Shown here: positions 55 to 55,691 of the stretch, piece by piece
How positions within the stretch are numbered: position 1 is the stretch's first letter
Layout: the number at the start of each line of letters is the position of its first letter
NCBI GenBank assembly: GCA_017428785.1
Contig: JAFRQD010000048.1
Location: forward strand, 1-56,357
DNA length: 56,357 nucleotides
Direction: 5' to 3'
Source: Bacteroidaceae bacterium
Lineage (GTDB): Bacteria > Bacteroidota > Bacteroidia > Bacteroidales > Bacteroidaceae
Translations under genes and position numbers: made by a program
The notes under the pieces: generated by a model
What the model was told of the DNA's origin: nothing
Database searches by the model: none
The model's input: only the letters and a program-made list of their open reading frames with translations

Positions 55-1613
55 ACAGGACATTATATGGAAACCTTATCTTCGAGTTGTCGAAGAAAGG
101 ACGCAAGGGTTACTCCCTTCCGCAGGACTATGACCGCACGCATACAACGGCGGAACTTCCCGAGGCACTTCGCCGCAAGGAAGCAGCAAGGTTGCCCGAG
201 TGCGACGAGCTGACGGTGGTGCGTCACTACACGAACCTCAGTCACAACAACTTCGGCGTGAACGACGGCTTCTATCCGCTCGGCTCGTGCACGATGAAGT
301 ACAATCCCGTCATCAACGAAGAGATAGCCGGCATGAAGGCCTTCGCCGGACTGCATCCCCTGCAACCCGCCGTGACCTGCCAAGGCGCACTGGAAGTGTA
401 TTACAACCTGCAGGAATCGCTTGCCGAGCTTACCGGCCTGAGCGAATTCACGCTGAATCCCTGTGCCGGAGCACACGGCGAGTTGACCGGCCTAATGGTC
501 ATCCGCGCTTATCACGAAGCGCAAGCCACCGTGCCCGGCGGTTCTCCCGCCACTGTGCCCGGCGGTTCTCCGTCGGGTAAACGCACGAAGGTTCTCATCC
601 CCGACTCGGCACACGGCACGAACCCCGCCTCTGCAGCAGTCTGCGGCCTGGAGGTCGTCGAGGTGAAGAGCCTTGCTGACGGCACGGTCGATGTCGACCA
701 CCTGCGTCAACTCCTCAGCGAAATGGGAAGCGAGGTTGCTGCCATGATGATGACCAACCCCAACACGTTGGGCATCTTCGAGCCGCATGTGCTGGAGATT
801 ACCGAGATGGTACACAAGGCCGGCGGCCTGATGTACTACGACGGCGCGAACCTCAATGCGTTGCTCGGCGAATGCCGTCCCGGCGACATGGGCTTCGACG
901 TGATGCACATCAACCTGCACAAGACATTCTCCACGCCTCATGGCGGTGGTGGTCCAGGCAGTGGTCCGGTCGGCGTACGCAAAGGTTTGGAACAGTTCCT
1001 CCCGACGCCTCGCGTCAAGAAGGTTGTAGTGAATTACGACCTCCCCGAAGACGGTCCGACCGAATGGGAAGGCTTCATCGTCGACTGGGGACAAAGCGAC
1101 TCTTCGCTCGGCTCTGTCGGCAACTTCTTCGGCAACTTCGGCGTGATGCTGAAGGCCTATGCCTACATCCTGTCGCTCGGAAGCGAGAACATCAAGCAGG
1201 TCGGCCCGTTGGCAACGCTCAACGCGAACTACATCAAGGAGCGCCTTCGCGACAGTTACCTCTTGCCCATCAAGGGCTTGTGCAAGCACGAGGTGGTCTT
1301 TGACGGCCTCGTTGACAAGAGCACTGGCGTGACGACAATGGATGTGGCGAAGCGCTTGCTCGACTACGGCTACCATGCTCCCACCATCTACTTCCCGCTG
1401 CTCTTCCATGAGAGCCTCATGATAGAGCCCACCGAGAACGAGAGCAAGGAGACCATCGATGCCTTCATCGACGTGATGCACAAGATAGCCGAGGAGGCCA
1501 AGACAGACCCCGAGCTGGTGAAGACAGCGCCGCACAACACGCCAATCGGCCGCGTGGACGACGTGCTGGCTGCCAAGCAACCTGTAACAACCTATTGGAA
1601 GAGCAAAGAATGA
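51..1613 (+). CDS. gcvPB: Glycine dehydrogenase (decarboxylating) subunit 2, P-protein
   Basis: PLP-dependent P-protein subunit of the cytoplasmic glycine cleavage system; with GcvPA it decarboxylates glycine and passes the aminomethyl group to lipoylated H-protein. The PLP-binding motif HINLHKTFSTPHGGGGPGSG is present, with the Schiff-base lysine at about Lys291. Family hallmarks NFGVNDGFYPLGSCTMKYNP near the N-terminus and DSAHGTNPASA after it are intact. At 520 residues it is somewhat longer than the usual roughly 480. Part of the excess is a tandem repeat ATVPGGSP-ATVPGGSP at residues 159-174, outside the catalytic motifs. ATG overlaps the upstream stop and the TGA overlaps the lpdA start, so gcvPA-gcvPB-lpdA form one coupled operon. 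Confidence 0.95.
   Translation: MNRTLYGNLIFELSKKGRKGYSLPQDYDRTHTTAELPEALRRKEAARLPECDELTVVRHYTNLSHNNFGVNDGFYPLGSCTMKYNPVINEEIAGMKAFAGLHPLQPAVTCQGALEVYYNLQESLAELTGLSEFTLNPCAGAHGELTGLMVIRAYHEAQATVPGGSPATVPGGSPSGKRTKVLIPDSAHGTNPASAAVCGLEVVEVKSLADGTVDVDHLRQLLSEMGSEVAAMMMTNPNTLGIFEPHVLEITEMVHKAGGLMYYDGANLNALLGECRPGDMGFDVMHINLHKTFSTPHGGGGPGSGPVGVRKGLEQFLPTPRVKKVVVNYDLPEDGPTEWEGFIVDWGQSDSSLGSVGNFFGNFGVMLKAYAYILSLGSENIKQVGPLATLNANYIKERLRDSYLLPIKGLCKHEVVFDGLVDKSTGVTTMDVAKRLLDYGYHAPTIYFPLLFHESLMIEPTENESKETIDAFIDVMHKIAEEAKTDPELVKTAPHNTPIGRVDDVLAAKQPVTTYWKSKE
525..572. repeat. 24-bp tandem duplication inside gcvPB
   Basis: Two adjacent 24-bp copies (525-548 and 549-572) differ at two positions and encode ATVPGGSP twice. 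The length keeps the frame, so the insert is tolerated between the N-terminal half and the motif KVLIPDSAHGTN. Confidence 0.85.
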
Positions 1614-2884
1614 CAGACCTTATTATCATAGGCGCCGGCCCCGGCGGCTACAAGGCAGCGGTCTATGCAGCGAAGAAGGGCCTGAAGGTCACTATCTTCG
1701 AGGACGTCCATGTGGGTGGTACATGCCTCAACGTGGGCTGCATCCCGACGAAGACCTACGTACACTCTGCCACGTTTGCTGAAGCCGTAGAGCGTCAGCC
1801 ACAGGTCGTGGAGGCGTTGCGTGGCGGCGTCGAGACACTTCTCTCCCACCCCAACATCACTTTGGTACGCGAGAAGGGCGTCTTCATCAATGCTAATACG
1901 GTGAGCGGCGTGACGGCAAAGCACATCATCGTCGCCACAGGTAGCAGCGCAAATATGCTGCCCATCCCGGGTGCCGACGGACAGAACGTAGGCTCTTCCA
2001 CCGAGTTGCTCGGCCTGAAGGAACTGCCCAAGCGTCTCTGCATCATCGGCGCTGGCGTCATCGGCATGGAGTTTGCGAGCGTCTTCCAGAAGTTCGGAAG
2101 CGAGGTGACCGTCGTGGAGTACCTCAAGGAGTGTCTGCCCATGGTGGATGGCGACATTGCCAAGCGCCTGCGCAAGCTCCTGGAGAAGCGCGGCATCACC
2201 TTCTACATGGGAGCCGGCGTGAAGAGCATCGACGGCTCGACTGTCCTCTTCGAACAGAAGGGCAAGGAGGTGAGCGTAGAGGCCGACTACATCCTGATGG
2301 CAACGGGCCGCAAGCCGAATGTGTCGCCGGACTTCGCCAATGCGGGTTTCGACTACGACGAGCGCAAGGGCATCGCTGTGGATGAGAACTTCGAGACCAG
2401 CGTGAAAGGCATCTACGCCATTGGCGACGTCAACGGACGCCAGATGCTGGCCCATGCGGCGGAGATGCAAGGCATCCATGTCGTGAACCACATCTTAGGA
2501 GCAAGGGGCAAGGAGCAAGGGGCAAGAGTCGATGGCATTCGTTTCGACGTGATGCCTGCCGCAATCTTCACCGAGCCAGAGGCCGCTTGCGTCGGTCCGA
2601 CGGAGGACCAGCTGAAGGAACAGGGCGTGCCGTTCGAGTGCCACAAGAGTTTCTACCGTGCCAACGGCAAGGCGCTGGCTATGAACGAGACCGAGGGAAT
2701 GGTCAAGCTGTGCTGCGAGCCGGACGAAGGCAAGCTGCTCAGTGCACATGTCTTCGGAGCGCATGCTGCCGACATCGTGCAGGAAGTGACGGCCTACATC
2801 ACGCTTGGCGCCACGCTGCGTCAGCTCCGCGAGACCGTCCACATCCACCCAACGCTCTCCGAGGTGCTGATTGAAGTGAACTGA
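1610..2884 (+). CDS. lpdA: Dihydrolipoyl dehydrogenase (E3 / L-protein)
   Basis: FAD flavoenzyme that re-oxidises the dihydrolipoyl H-protein of the glycine cleavage system and may serve 2-oxoacid dehydrogenases. Seen: N-terminal FAD fold IIIGAGPGGYKAA, redox disulfide GGTCLNVGCIPTK, NAD fold IIGAGVIGMEFASVF, second FAD motif YAIGDV, and the C-terminal His-Glu pair HIHPTLSE. The start is set at ATG 1610, which overlaps the gcvPB stop; the upstream in-frame ATG at 1595 would lie inside gcvPB. About 424 residues, slightly shorter than the 460-470 usual. A short low-complexity stretch (GARGKEQGAR), encoded by four 7-bp repeats at 2499-2526, is inserted just after the FAD motif region. A strong terminator follows. 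Confidence 0.95.
   Translation: MTDLIIIGAGPGGYKAAVYAAKKGLKVTIFEDVHVGGTCLNVGCIPTKTYVHSATFAEAVERQPQVVEALRGGVETLLSHPNITLVREKGVFINANTVSGVTAKHIIVATGSSANMLPIPGADGQNVGSSTELLGLKELPKRLCIIGAGVIGMEFASVFQKFGSEVTVVEYLKECLPMVDGDIAKRLRKLLEKRGITFYMGAGVKSIDGSTVLFEQKGKEVSVEADYILMATGRKPNVSPDFANAGFDYDERKGIAVDENFETSVKGIYAIGDVNGRQMLAHAAEMQGIHVVNHILGARGKEQGARVDGIRFDVMPAAIFTEPEAACVGPTEDQLKEQGVPFECHKSFYRANGKALAMNETEGMVKLCCEPDEGKLLSAHVFGAHAADIVQEVTAYITLGATLRQLRETVHIHPTLSEVLIEVN
2499..2526. repeat. Heptanucleotide tract in lpdA (GAGCAAG/GGGCAAG x4)
   Basis: Four consecutive 7-mers, GAGCAAG, GGGCAAG, GAGCAAG, GGGCAAG, lie in the coding strand and produce GARGKEQGAR. The same unit recurs at 55329-55356 and, inverted, at 53052-53079 and 55383-55403. 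Confidence 0.9.
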
Positions 2885-2899
2885 CAATCCCCAAAGGAA

Positions 2900-2940
2900 A
2901 TAGCCCCCAGCCGTTGTTGCGACTGGGGGCTATCTCTTTT
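2900..2940 (+). terminator. Rho-independent terminator of the gcv-lpdA operon
   Basis: Perfect 11-bp stem ATAGCCCCCAG (2900-2910) / CTGGGGGCTAT (2923-2933), 12-nt loop, then CTCTTTT. It starts 16 bp after the lpdA stop, and the convergent gene ends at 2951. Confidence 0.92.
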
Positions 2941-2950
2941 GACAGGCTGG

Positions 2951-4468
2951 CTACTTCACCAAAACCTTTTTGCCGCCATTCACATAGATGCCTTTCTGAG
3001 TGGGCTTGCCTGAAAGCTTGCGCCCATCGAGCGTGTACCAGGCGTCTCTGTTGTCCGTTGACTGTTGTCCGCTGTCTATCAACTTGATGCCGACGGGGGC
3101 ATCTGCCATGTCGAGGTGGTTGGTGGAGTGGTTAAAGTAAGCCCATTCGCTCTTTATCATGGCATAGCCGATGCCTGCGTTTGCAGGAAGATAGAGGAAG
3201 GCTTGGTTCTCTTGTATGCGTCTTTTCCAGAAGCAATTGCTTTCGCCCAGGTCGGAGGCGAGTACGGGAGGGTCAATCCTGTATACATTCACGCGCTTGA
3301 GGTCGTAGAGCGCGAAGGCTTGCTTGCCCACCTTCTTCACGCCGGAGCCGAGCGTCAGCGTCTTGACATGGTCGTCGGGATGCTGGCCAAGGTCGCCGTC
3401 GCCCGAGTAATAGAGGAAGTAGGGCTGTACCTCCACATCGACGCCAGTGATGACGATTTCCTTGATATCAGCCAAGTAGTCAATCCACTTCAGGCGATAT
3501 GCCACCTCCGGGTCGGTCGTCTTGCTTGTGCAGTTCCAGGGCATCTGTCCGACATAGTCGATGGTCAGCACACCGTCCTCTAAGCGCCAAGTGCCCTGAG
3601 TGCCAAGAGTGCCATGCGGCTCTTCGATGATAACTTCGGGAGAATACACCTCTGCAAAGTTATAATTGTTATATATTGTGGTATTCCCTGTTTCCCATTC
3701 CTGCCCGTCCACTACGACCTTTACCTTATGTGCCAGTTGGTATTGGTTGTTGTTGTCATTGACTTCCCTGTCGCGTATAACCCTGGCATGGAAGCGCCAT
3801 TTGCCGGGAGTGAAGGTGCCGCTGCTGACATCCTCCCAACTGCCACTCACTTTCTTCTGCCAAGAGAAAGGATGGATGAAGGCAGGTGAACCTTTCGTGA
3901 TGTCGAACTCTGGCTTTGTGGCTACCGTCTCGCCCTTCTTGACGATGGTTGTCCAGTCGGGGCTTGTCGTGGCCTCCACCTGACGAATCTTCGTGCTGTT
4001 GTCGATGACAACTGTGGGAGAGTAAATAGCAAGGAGGATATCGGTTACTTCCACTTCCCATTCCTCTCCGTTAATCAGAACCCTGACATCGTCTGCAAAG
4101 CGTAAGTCTGATTCGTAATTTTTCGCTACTGAACCCTTGTAGCGCCAAGCACCTGCCACAAACTCGTCAGGTCTGTTTTGGGCAGTCGTCCATTCTCCGT
4201 CGAGCAAAAATTGCCATTGGCCGATAAAGAAAAAAACAGGAACATCATTAGTCAAGGTGAATTGCGGGTTTGTATTACTTTTGACACCCACTTCGGGGAT
4301 GTCATCCCAGCCATCGCTACTGCCTTCCACAAGATGTATCAGCTTGTCATTGTCTTCCGGGGTTGTTTCGCTTGCGGCATTCATTTGATTGACAGGTGCA
4401 TGGTTGCCTGCCTGCACCCAGGTAACGGTTGCCCAAAGGACAAAAAGAAGTGTAAAGAGTCTTTTCAT
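2951..4468 (-). CDS. Secreted two-repeat protein with BspA-like segment
   Basis: Not a recognised enzyme. ATG 4468 was chosen because it begins a clean signal peptide (MKRLFTLLFVLWATVTWVQAG); the frame upstream is not signal-like. About 505 residues. After a short linker come two similar modules of about 90 residues, each with a 'WQ....G.W....' part and each ending near VYSP/IYSP(T/E)V(V/I)I(D/E), probably beta-sandwich folds. A further part (LTLGSGVKKVGKQAFALYDL) resembles BspA-type leucine-rich repeats. The C-terminus ends WYTLDGRKLSGKPTQKGIYV with GGKKVLVK, a tail shared with the gene at 4903. It lies downstream of that gene on the same strand but has its own TAnnTTTG box. Likely exported or surface-attached; ligand unknown. 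Confidence 0.8.
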   Translation of the reverse strand: MKRLFTLLFVLWATVTWVQAGNHAPVNQMNAASETTPEDNDKLIHLVEGSSDGWDDIPEVGVKSNTNPQFTLTNDVPVFFFIGQWQFLLDGEWTTAQNRPDEFVAGAWRYKGSVAKNYESDLRFADDVRVLINGEEWEVEVTDILLAIYSPTVVIDNSTKIRQVEATTSPDWTTIVKKGETVATKPEFDITKGSPAFIHPFSWQKKVSGSWEDVSSGTFTPGKWRFHARVIRDREVNDNNNQYQLAHKVKVVVDGQEWETGNTTIYNNYNFAEVYSPEVIIEEPHGTLGTQGTWRLEDGVLTIDYVGQMPWNCTSKTTDPEVAYRLKWIDYLADIKEIVITGVDVEVQPYFLYYSGDGDLGQHPDDHVKTLTLGSGVKKVGKQAFALYDLKRVNVYRIDPPVLASDLGESNCFWKRRIQENQAFLYLPANAGIGYAMIKSEWAYFNHSTNHLDMADAPVGIKLIDSGQQSTDNRDAWYTLDGRKLSGKPTQKGIYVNGGKKVLVK

Positions 4469-53883: not shown

Positions 53884-53907
53884 CCGAACAAGGCATTCAA
53901 GCCAACA

Positions 53908-53939
53908 GGGCAGCATCCGTCAAGGGTGCTGCCCTTTTT
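53908..53939 (+). terminator. hsp20 terminator
   Basis: GGGCAGCA (53908-53915) / TGCTGCCC (53927-53934), 11-nt loop, T5. Confidence 0.92.
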
Positions 53940-53975
53940 CGTTGCCCTTCCCGGCACATGAAGTCCGTTGCATAT

Positions 53976-54041
53976 ACATGTATGTGCAATTGCATCTACA
54001 TGTACGTGCAATTGCATCTACATGTACTTGCAATAAACCCA
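53976..54041. repeat. 22-bp period array ACATGTAYGTGCAATTGCAT x3
   Basis: Starts at 53976, 53998 and 54020. Each unit contains two palindromes, ACATGT and TGCAATTGCA; the third decays after TTGCAAT. Confidence 0.9.
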
Positions 54042-54254: not shown

Positions 54255-55367
54255 ATGAAAGGCGAGAAACTTGGCATAAGACGGACTATTGCGCTCGAGG
54301 CAGCACGGTTGCTGAACAAGAGTCTCCGCTCGGAACATCCGCTCCGGCAGGTGTTCTGGGAGAGCACCGTGCGCTGCAACATCCATTGCCGCCACTGCGG
54401 GAGCGACTGCCGTCAGGCTGCCACGGTGCCTGATATGCCTCGCGAGGACTTCTTCCGCGTGCTGGACAATATTGCCGCGAAGCGCAATCCGGGCGAGGTC
54501 TTCGTTATCCTCGGCGGCGGAGAACCGCTGGTGAGAGAGGATGTTGTGGAGTGCGCTCAGGGCATCAGCCAACGCGGTTTCCCCTGGGGAATGGTGACGA
54601 ACGGGCTCTTCCTTACGCCCGAACTCTTTCAGAAGCTGAAGGATGCCGGCCTCTGCTCCGTGACAATCAGCCTCGACGGGCTCGAGGAACAGCACACCTG
54701 GCTGCGTCGCAACCCCGACTGCTTCCGCATGGCCAGCCAAGCCATCGACATGATAGTGCGCGACCCGTCGCTCGCCTACGACGTGATGACCTGCGTGCAT
54801 CAGCACAACTACGACACGCTGCCCGAACTCAAGGCGTTCCTCATCGACAAAGGCGTCACGGACTGGCGGCTCGCCACCATCTTTCCGGTGGGCCGCGCGG
54901 CACAGGACAAGGAGCTGCAACTCACGGGCGAACAACTCAGGGGACTGCTCCAGTTCATCCGCGAGACACGCCAGGAGGGGCAGATTCATGCGTCGTATGG
55001 CTGCGAAGGCTTCCTCGGACCGTACGAAGGCGACGTCCGCGATTGGATGTTCCGCTGCACAGCAGGAGTGACGGCGGCTTCCGTCCTCGTCGACGGAGGC
55101 ATCAGCGCCTGCACAAGCATCAGGCACAACTACCGGCAGGGGAACATCTACCAAGACGACTTCATGCAAGTCTGGGAGACGCGCTTCCAGCCTCATCGCA
55201 ACCACGAATGGATGAAAACAGGCGACTGCAAAGGCTGCAAGTACTGGCGCTACTGCGAAGGCGGCGGCATGCACCTCAGGGACAACGACGGCAAACTGTT
55301 GCTCTGCCACATGAAGAAAATGACTCAGGGGCAAGGAGCAAGGTGCAAGGAGCAAGAGAACACCTAA
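54255..55367 (+). CDS. Radical SAM/SPASM enzyme of a Bacteroidetes rSAM/lipoprotein pair
   Basis: 370 residues, cytoplasmic. SAM-cleaving [4Fe-4S] motif Cys41-x3-Cys45-x2-Cys48 (RCNIHCRHCG), GGE motif ILGGGEPL (about 86-92), SAM-binding VTNGLFLT and TISLDGLEEQH. The C-terminal SPASM-type cysteines are Cys250, Cys268, Cys286, Cys325, Cys328, Cys334 and Cys351, enough for two auxiliary clusters, as in peptide-modifying enzymes. I recall Bacteroidetes families named 'rSAM/lipoprotein system' (TIGR04133 with TIGR04134) that match this gene order; no search was possible. The last residues come from four GGGCAAG-type 7-bp units. The promoter ends 4 bp before ATG, so the mRNA may be leaderless. A lipoprotein gene follows 57 bp downstream. 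Confidence 0.88.
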   Translation: MKGEKLGIRRTIALEAARLLNKSLRSEHPLRQVFWESTVRCNIHCRHCGSDCRQAATVPDMPREDFFRVLDNIAAKRNPGEVFVILGGGEPLVREDVVECAQGISQRGFPWGMVTNGLFLTPELFQKLKDAGLCSVTISLDGLEEQHTWLRRNPDCFRMASQAIDMIVRDPSLAYDVMTCVHQHNYDTLPELKAFLIDKGVTDWRLATIFPVGRAAQDKELQLTGEQLRGLLQFIRETRQEGQIHASYGCEGFLGPYEGDVRDWMFRCTAGVTAASVLVDGGISACTSIRHNYRQGNIYQDDFMQVWETRFQPHRNHEWMKTGDCKGCKYWRYCEGGGMHLRDNDGKLLLCHMKKMTQGQGARCKEQENT

Positions 55368-55403
55368 TGCAATTGGTAACCTCCTGCCCCTTGCCCCTTG
55401 CCC
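55329..55403. repeat. Inverted heptanucleotide tracts between rSAM and lipoprotein genes
   Basis: GGGCAAG, GAGCAAG, GTGCAAG, GAGCAAG (55329-55356) face CCTGCCC, CTTGCCC, CTTGCCC (55383-55403). They can pair into a long hairpin that would enclose the rSAM stop codon. Confidence 0.85.
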
Positions 55404-55424
55404 CTAAACACTAAAAAAGATACT

Positions 55425-55691
55425 ATGGCAAAGAAGATTCGTTCATTCTGGCGGTTGCTGCTTGGCTCGCTCATCACGCTGTTGGGCTTCGCAGCCTGCA
55501 AGTCTGCCAAGAAAATGCAGAAAGGAGACGACACGACGGTGCTCTACGGACCTCCTCCAGGCGTCGTTATCGACAAAGTTGTGGAGCTTTACGCACCTCG
55601 TCCCGAAGTCATCGAAAAGAAAGAACCCATAGATAGAATGCGGCTTCTTTATGGCGTACCGCCCGTCAAGGTGAAGAAGGATAGCAAATGA
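55425..55691 (+). CDS. Small lipoprotein with three LY(G/A)xxP motifs, candidate rSAM substrate
   Basis: 88 residues from ATG 55425. Lipoprotein signal LLGSLITLLGFAAC (Cys25), basic linker KSAKKMQK, then VLYGPPP (39-45), ELYAPRP (54-60) and LLYGVPP (74-80), separated by charged segments (VVIDKVV, EVIEKKEPIDRMR), ending KVKKDSK. Three similar Tyr/Pro motifs in a protein encoded next to a SPASM radical SAM enzyme suggest modification at these sites; Tyr41, Tyr56 and Tyr76 or the adjacent prolines are candidates. This is inference. Lys after the lipidated Cys does not give an obvious sorting rule. Only 3 bp separate its stop from the convergent methyltransferase stop. Confidence 0.85.
   Translation: MAKKIRSFWRLLLGSLITLLGFAACKSAKKMQKGDDTTVLYGPPPGVVIDKVVELYAPRPEVIEKKEPIDRMRLLYGVPPVKVKKDSK

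Follow-up and report, generated by a model that had tools for sequence, protein, structure and literature searches.

The 56,357-nt window analyzed here (contig JAFRQD010000048.1 of assembly GCA_017428785.1, from a Bacteroidaceae bacterium) carries the gene of a radical SAM/SPASM enzyme followed by that of a small lipoprotein with repeated Tyr/Pro motifs, which raises the question of whether the enzyme modifies its neighbor and, if so, by what chemistry. A previous, sequence-only reading of the locus had taken the lipoprotein to be a multi-site substrate of the enzyme and had named the families TIGR04133 and TIGR04134 in this connection.

The enzyme and its lipoprotein neighbor

The family named for the enzyme was correct, as the protein scored 542.6 bits against NCBIfam TIGR04133 (cut-off, 425). 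A complete radical SAM core and seven C-terminal cysteines had been described, and both were confirmed (Pfam Radical_SAM, 66.2 bits; SPASM, 30.7 bits, with a gathering score of 21.5); all seven cysteines after residue 240 (C250, C268, C286, C325, C328, C334, and C351) were invariant among 24 homologues (Table 1). The usual SPASM pattern is CX9-15GX4C ... CX2CX5CX3C ... C. We found C268-x12-G281-x4-C286 and CX2CX5C in the window enzyme, but the full pattern was absent, since the fourth cysteine of CX2CX5CX3C was missing from all 15 TIGR04133 rows. C250 was invariant in the TIGR04133 rows, and the same column holds Asn in a Nostoc TIGR04103 enzyme; the enzymes of loci L035 and L216 have both a cysteine in the C250 column and the fourth SPASM cysteine. 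With the window enzyme, the NirJ2 model (126.7 bits) came out ahead of TIGR04103 (123.8 bits), and heme b synthase (123.3 bits) was level with the latter. An AlphaFold model of moderate quality (pLDDT 75.4, pTM 0.80) gave SuiB, SkfB, BlsE, and PqqE as best fold matches in the PDB, which is consistent with, although not decisive for, a peptide-modifying enzyme.

Table 1. Positions of the enzyme, its partner, and their motifs in the window
Feature	Positions	Strand	Evidence
TIGR04133-family radical SAM/SPASM enzyme, 370 aa	54255..55367	+	NCBIfam TIGR04133, Pfam Radical_SAM and SPASM
CX3CX2C (CNIHCRHC; C41, C45, C48), radical SAM cluster motif	54375..54398	+	invariant in 24/24 homologues
C-terminal region with seven invariant Cys (C250 to C351)	55002..55307	+	24 aligned homologues
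Partner lipoprotein, proposed substrate, 88 aa, ATG start	55425..55691	+	TIGR04134 only 12.2 bits
Signal peptide ending LLGFAAC, putative lipobox Cys25 (by eye), proposed enzyme recognition element	55425..55499	+	putative role in recognition
Site 1, LYGPPP	55542..55559	+	LYG kept in 10/10 close orthologues
LYAPRP, degenerate lineage-specific copy	55587..55604	+	absent from 10/10 close orthologues
Site 2, LYGVPP	55647..55664	+	LYGxP kept in 10/10 close orthologues

The lipoprotein gene lies 57 nt downstream of the enzyme gene on the same strand, and the list of open reading frames also gives it as a 97-aa version with a TTG start. All three motifs previously seen in the 88-residue product (VLYGPPP, ELYAPRP, and LLYGVPP) were found. 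Its LLGFAAC, with the putative lipobox cysteine, was read by eye; a few partners in the family (L031, L033, and L034) have no such cysteine. Plain membership of TIGR04134, as formerly suggested, was rejected, since the protein reached only 12.2 bits (E = 0.14; cut-off, 39.8), and a search of the window's own genome with this model at E 10 returned no copy, the window's own partner included. Like TIGR04134 partners, the window lipoprotein has a lipobox-like signal (LGF..C) and YGxP and adjoins a TIGR04133 enzyme that scores above its cut-off; unlike them, it has no CarboxypepD_reg-like domain and holds two YG sites and one YA copy. When 10 close orthologues were aligned, each had two LYG sites, and LYAPRP was found to sit in a 15-residue insertion missing from all of them, so that the middle site is specific to the window's lineage. 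Three equal sites were rejected, the middle one being a degenerate copy in a lineage-specific insertion.

Distribution and pairing

TIGR04133 enzymes scoring above the cut-off occurred in 50 of 121 genomes of the genus, 59 of 201 of the family, and 61 of 295 of the order, and in two of 296 genomes of a phylum sample, one of them the window's own. The named genomes yielded at least 587 relatives, the best 80 of which came from Bacteroidia or Bacteroidales groups. An enzyme-partner pair was also present in another phylum, on plasmid pTS1 of Treponema saccharophilum, where it lies near an Mpi-type DNA invertase and where the Tyr of the partner motif directly follows the lipobox cysteine (SCYGMP).

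To describe the neighbors, a 5-mer overlap filter was applied to 168 enzyme loci, which left 145 non-redundant ones; regular expressions served to pick partners no more than 350 nt away, and these were then checked by eye. A partner with X-Tyr-Gly (XYG), usually XYGxP, was present at 135 of the 145 loci. YGxP lay inside the 350-nt limit at 121 of them, 11 had another XYG, and there were three further cases, namely L022 (partner in frame with the enzyme), L142 (partner ~1 kb downstream of the enzyme), and L073 (XYG in the second gene upstream, the nearest upstream gene having LYPPE instead). Two loci had XYA only (L094 and L171), five ended at contig ends (L087, L102, L170, L193, and L199), and three had no XYG partner in the flanks examined (L173, L185, and L090, the last with none in 17.5 kb). 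The pairing of enzyme and lipoprotein claimed previously was borne out at the great majority of loci, but once the loci truncated at contig ends were set aside, five of the remaining 140 departed from it (the two with XYA and the three with no partner). At L022 (positions 1480-3051), the TIGR04133 enzyme and a TIGR04134-like lipoprotein are read as a single 523-aa ORF.

NCBIfam lists TIGR04133 and TIGR04134 as hypothetical equivalogs, and the two models co-occurred strongly. Of the 295 genomes of the order, 45 contained TIGR04134 at an E-value of up to 1e-6 and 69 contained the enzyme at one of up to 1e-60; with the overlap counted by hand, 42 genomes had both, 27 the enzyme only, and three the lipoprotein only (Fisher p = 6e-29). 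Lone lipoproteins were thus confined to three of 45 genomes, but the enzyme stood without a TIGR04134 match in 27 of 69, some of which have short partners that this model missed (e.g., L078, L081, L083, and L086), while L090 has none. As for the lipoprotein-only genomes, G515 has an enzyme fragment directly after the lipoprotein, and the copy in G578 reads DMYYEP, the YG being lost. Such a loss of YG from a lipoprotein copy in a genome that has no enzyme (L230) is in keeping with a link between motif and enzyme. However, G718, in which no enzyme was detected, keeps YG: one of its copies, close to the end of a contig, has CYGSP, and another reads QYGA.

Conservation of the X-Tyr-Gly site

Motifs were counted in 147 partner proteins from 130 loci; upstream rows with doubtful starts (L023, L168, and L192) were excluded, and the partners of L022, L073, and L142, although counted among the 135 loci, lie outside the 147. 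Every one of the 147 proteins holds YG, in up to four copies per protein, and 136 hold YGxP, while Phe, Trp, or His never takes the place of the Tyr (FGxP, WGxP, and HGxP, 0 of 147). Seven matches to A/S/L/I-GxP were other stretches of proteins that hold YGxP too. Across the 232 YG sites of these partners, some of them incidental sites in C-terminal domains, X was Glu at 69, Leu at 56, Met at 49, and Val at 18, and Pro stood at +2 after the Gly at 170, again with some incidental sites included. YA occurred at 37 further sites, some likewise incidental. The residue right after the Gly varies widely, and L112, L137, and L148 have no Pro at +2. The LY(G/A)xxP pattern first noted in the window lipoprotein is present there, but the pattern common to the family is X-Y-G-x-P.

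The motif was kept in partners of unlike architecture, i.e., long partners with a CarboxypepD_reg-like domain, short tails, and coiled-coil-like forms (L081 and L083). Partners that have no lipid-bearing cysteine keep it as well (MYGMP in L031 and L033; PEYGV in L034), and in some partners X is the lipobox cysteine itself (SCYGMP and MACYGPAP). A signal stretch of the form [LFIVM]G[FYIVLM] was present between residues 6 and 55 in 142 of the 147 proteins. As a control, YGxP was sought in 32 lipobox-like ORFs that lie in the flanks of named loci but apart from the enzyme. Two had it, an additional partner at L182 and an 844-aa ORF at L206, so that the motif in the partners exceeds what chance would give. 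In the window's genome, a DNA pattern for [LF]YGxP gave 70 matches vs. 104 for the reversed pattern, i.e., it was not commoner. Judged by their sequences, an XYG site and an export signal are what otherwise widely differing partners keep across relatives. It is very probable that the XYG site ties the partner to the enzyme, a link well supported by this conservation.

Relationship to spliceases

MYG and LYG are the sites of action of the splicease PlpXY, whose natural X residues are Met and Leu, and LYGLP occurs in a PlpXY splice tag. A member of TIGR04103, a family that we take to be the same as IPR026482, is encoded on a plasmid of Nostoc sp. C057 (853.1 bits; cut-off, 725) beside a Nif11 precursor ending ALYGLPPELF, and LYGxPP is common to this precursor and the window lipoprotein. 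Passages in two papers place PlpX in IPR026482 and describe it as working with an RRE protein, PlpY (PMC11002830; PMC10373908). A search for solved structures returned no splicease structure for the Nostoc TIGR04103 enzyme.

Phylogenetic analysis was performed on 30 rows chosen because they resemble TIGR04133 or TIGR04103, PqqE having been removed after it fell on a very long branch in a first tree. TIGR04133 formed one clade (support 100/100) and joined TIGR04103, TIGR03913, and five related enzymes (L035, L036, L042, L043, and L216) at 100/97, apart from the NirJ2-like, TIGR04053, TIGR04347, and MftC-like rows. The branching order inside this larger clade is unsettled, since forcing TIGR04133 together with TIGR04103 and TIGR03913 alone was 10 log units worse, with p-AU 0.136. 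Model scores were mixed. Over 24 TIGR04133 members, TIGR04103 had the lowest best E-value (9.1e-44) of the NCBIfam models other than TIGR04133 itself. Against a splicease reading, however, the window enzyme's score with TIGR04103 is far under the cut-off (123.8 vs. 725 bits), this model ranked only fifth among the non-self models for the Treponema member (91.1 bits), and the heme b synthase model scored higher than TIGR04133 with the Nostoc and L035 enzymes.

The window pair resembles PlpX-type spliceases in its radical SAM/SPASM architecture, in the larger clade shared with TIGR04103, and in the MYG/LYG type of motif in the presumed target. Unlike them, it has one SPASM cysteine missing; no RRE or PlpY-like ORF was seen beside it (ORFs of at least 50 aa, by eye), and no Nif11 or NHLP leader was matched in the lipoprotein by NCBIfam or Pfam. 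Moreover, the partner of a TIGR04133 enzyme is a lipoprotein rather than a RiPP precursor, and its X is often Glu. MftC, SkfB, and SuiB are likewise radical SAM/SPASM enzymes with peptide substrates, and two of them, SuiB and SkfB, are the best fold matches above; MftC falls outside the larger clade, and SkfB and SuiB were left out of the tree. The targets of these three enzymes have different motifs. Taken together, the motif and the tree point to splicease-type chemistry; the sequence-only reading had proposed no chemistry.

Neighbors of other enzymes in the clade

Of the 10 clade rows that lie outside TIGR04133, six (L035, L208, L209, L212, L214, and L216) have a nearby XYG-bearing protein that is either small or built of repeats, L209 being the Nostoc row. 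TIGR03913, the GDL motif peptide-associated radical SAM family, belongs to the same larger clade, and its DUF1843 peptides are soluble, about 55-70 aa long, and devoid of a signal peptide; several have XY[GA] near the N-terminus. Two DUF1843-type peptides at L208 have LYGVG and PYGVA, and three at L212 (Aureibacter) have PYGAG, LYAAG, and MYAAS, i.e., YA in two of three. Of the two peptides at L214 (Azospirillum), one has RPYGPA and the other MYMA near its start. The strongest of the six cases was L035, a genome of the window's family, where a 214-aa protein just downstream of the clade enzyme (positions 3003-3647) ends in six KYGYP copies; it had no Pfam or NCBIfam match and looks like another multi-site XYGxP substrate. 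No convincing XYG peptide was found within 900 nt at the other four rows (L215, L036, L042, and L043). Since a single YG can arise by chance in larger neighbors, this evidence is weaker than that from TIGR04133's own partners.

On the Agathobacter rectalis plasmid of L216, a 68-aa ORF ending VMYGTGVRM (positions 2710-2916) is missing from the record's gene table. It lies directly upstream of the clade enzyme and an MFS transporter, and is a candidate small spliced peptide.

Proposed mechanism and alternatives

The best explanation of these results, in our view, is that the XYG Tyr is modified by the enzyme ahead of export, probably through tyramine excision of the splicease type, a reading that we hold at close to even confidence. 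We infer tyramine excision because the motif is identical with the PlpXY targets and because the clade is shared with TIGR04103. The TIGR04133 enzyme and its partner would then form a dedicated protein-modifying pair, in which the enzyme binds the partner while it is still in the cytosol, probably via the signal peptide with its conserved LLxxLGF..C, and targets the Tyr of each X-Tyr-Gly-x-Pro site, with loss of C8H9NO and a ketoamide left behind. The modified partner would subsequently be exported and lipidated at its Cys, so as to display one or more electrophilic ketoamides in a flexible linker, where they could conceivably serve as a protease trap or a covalent anchor. The sequences themselves establish the pairing, the conserved XYG, the clade in common with TIGR04103 and TIGR03913 enzymes, and a motif that recurs in some of those enzymes' neighbors; action on the partner, the place of binding, the reaction, its timing, and the eventual function are inferred. 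The broader proposal, that lipoproteins of Bacteroidales and of a Treponema are backbone-spliced, with the signal peptide as leader, a cytosolic splicease removing one tyramine per XYG, and the ketoamides displayed, is tentative and falls somewhat short of even confidence.

Masses were computed for the predicted products, with C8H9NO taken as 135.0684. The peptide LLYGVPPVK has an [M+H]+ of 985.608 unmodified and 850.540 after loss of C8H9NO, and GDDTTVLYGPPPGVVIDK has 1842.948 and 1707.880, respectively; the computed mass of VVELYAPRPEVIEK, the peptide with the LYA copy, is 1641.921. The mass printed for this loss elsewhere is 135.0757 (PMC10533398).

Alternatively, the XYG Tyr could be modified by a different radical reaction, e.g., cross-linking, hydroxylation, desaturation, epimerization, or removal of just the phenol side chain with no backbone excision, which we regard as possible though not probable. 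SPASM enzymes carry out many reactions, the window enzyme's HMM scores lie close together for several families, its best folds are SuiB, SkfB, BlsE, and PqqE, and its SPASM cysteine pattern differs from that of TIGR04103. In addition, the common Pro at +2 could be a reaction partner. Against this alternative as a whole, the Gly that follows Tyr at one site or more in every partner fits backbone chemistry between Tyr and Gly, the residue after that Gly is variable, and some partners have no Pro at +2.

It is unlikely that XYGxP has a structural or sorting role in the lipoproteins and that the enzyme modifies something else, such as the lipobox cysteine or the N-terminal region. The LG[FY]-type signal stretch is conserved almost to the same degree as XYGxP, X is the lipobox cysteine in some members, and G718 keeps YG with no enzyme detected; nevertheless, partners that have no lipobox cysteine still keep XYG, soluble peptides beside clade relatives carry it without a lipobox, and YG recurs within single proteins. 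Finally, the scores with the NirJ2 and heme b synthase models might suggest a tetrapyrrole or other small-molecule enzyme beside an unrelated lipoprotein by chance, which we rejected as highly improbable given the XYG pairing at the enzyme loci, the co-occurrence across the order, the separation of TIGR04133 from the NirJ2-like row in the tree, and the in-frame ORF of L022.

Implications and upstream context

TIGR04133 and TIGR04134 are a common pair in Bacteroidales, and if tyramine excision does occur, the lipoproteins that gut and rumen bacteria export would bear ketoamides, a group linked to protease inhibition in a passage of PMC11002830. A passage in a 2022 review states that no natural spliceotide had yet been isolated and that the role of backbone splicing was not known (PMC8868522); were the proposal true, that role would become accessible by knock-out, and XYG-directed splicing would count as a general way in which gut bacteria modify proteins, reaching beyond natural-product chemistry. 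The pair might also supply a splicease that needs no separate RRE protein, which would be useful for protein labeling. The TIGR04133 family was not found described as a splicease in the literature searched; the survey of Scott et al. 2022 (Chem) lay outside that search, and priority is uncertain.

Upstream of the pair, a terminator-like hairpin with 12 pairs follows an Hsp20-like ORF (identified by eye) at positions 53907-53935, such sites being about as numerous in the region as in shuffled sequences. Because of this hairpin, the enzyme and lipoprotein genes may form their own transcription unit. Between the Hsp20-like ORF and the enzyme, at positions 53968-54033, there are three 22-bp near-palindromic direct repeats that are 86-100% alike.
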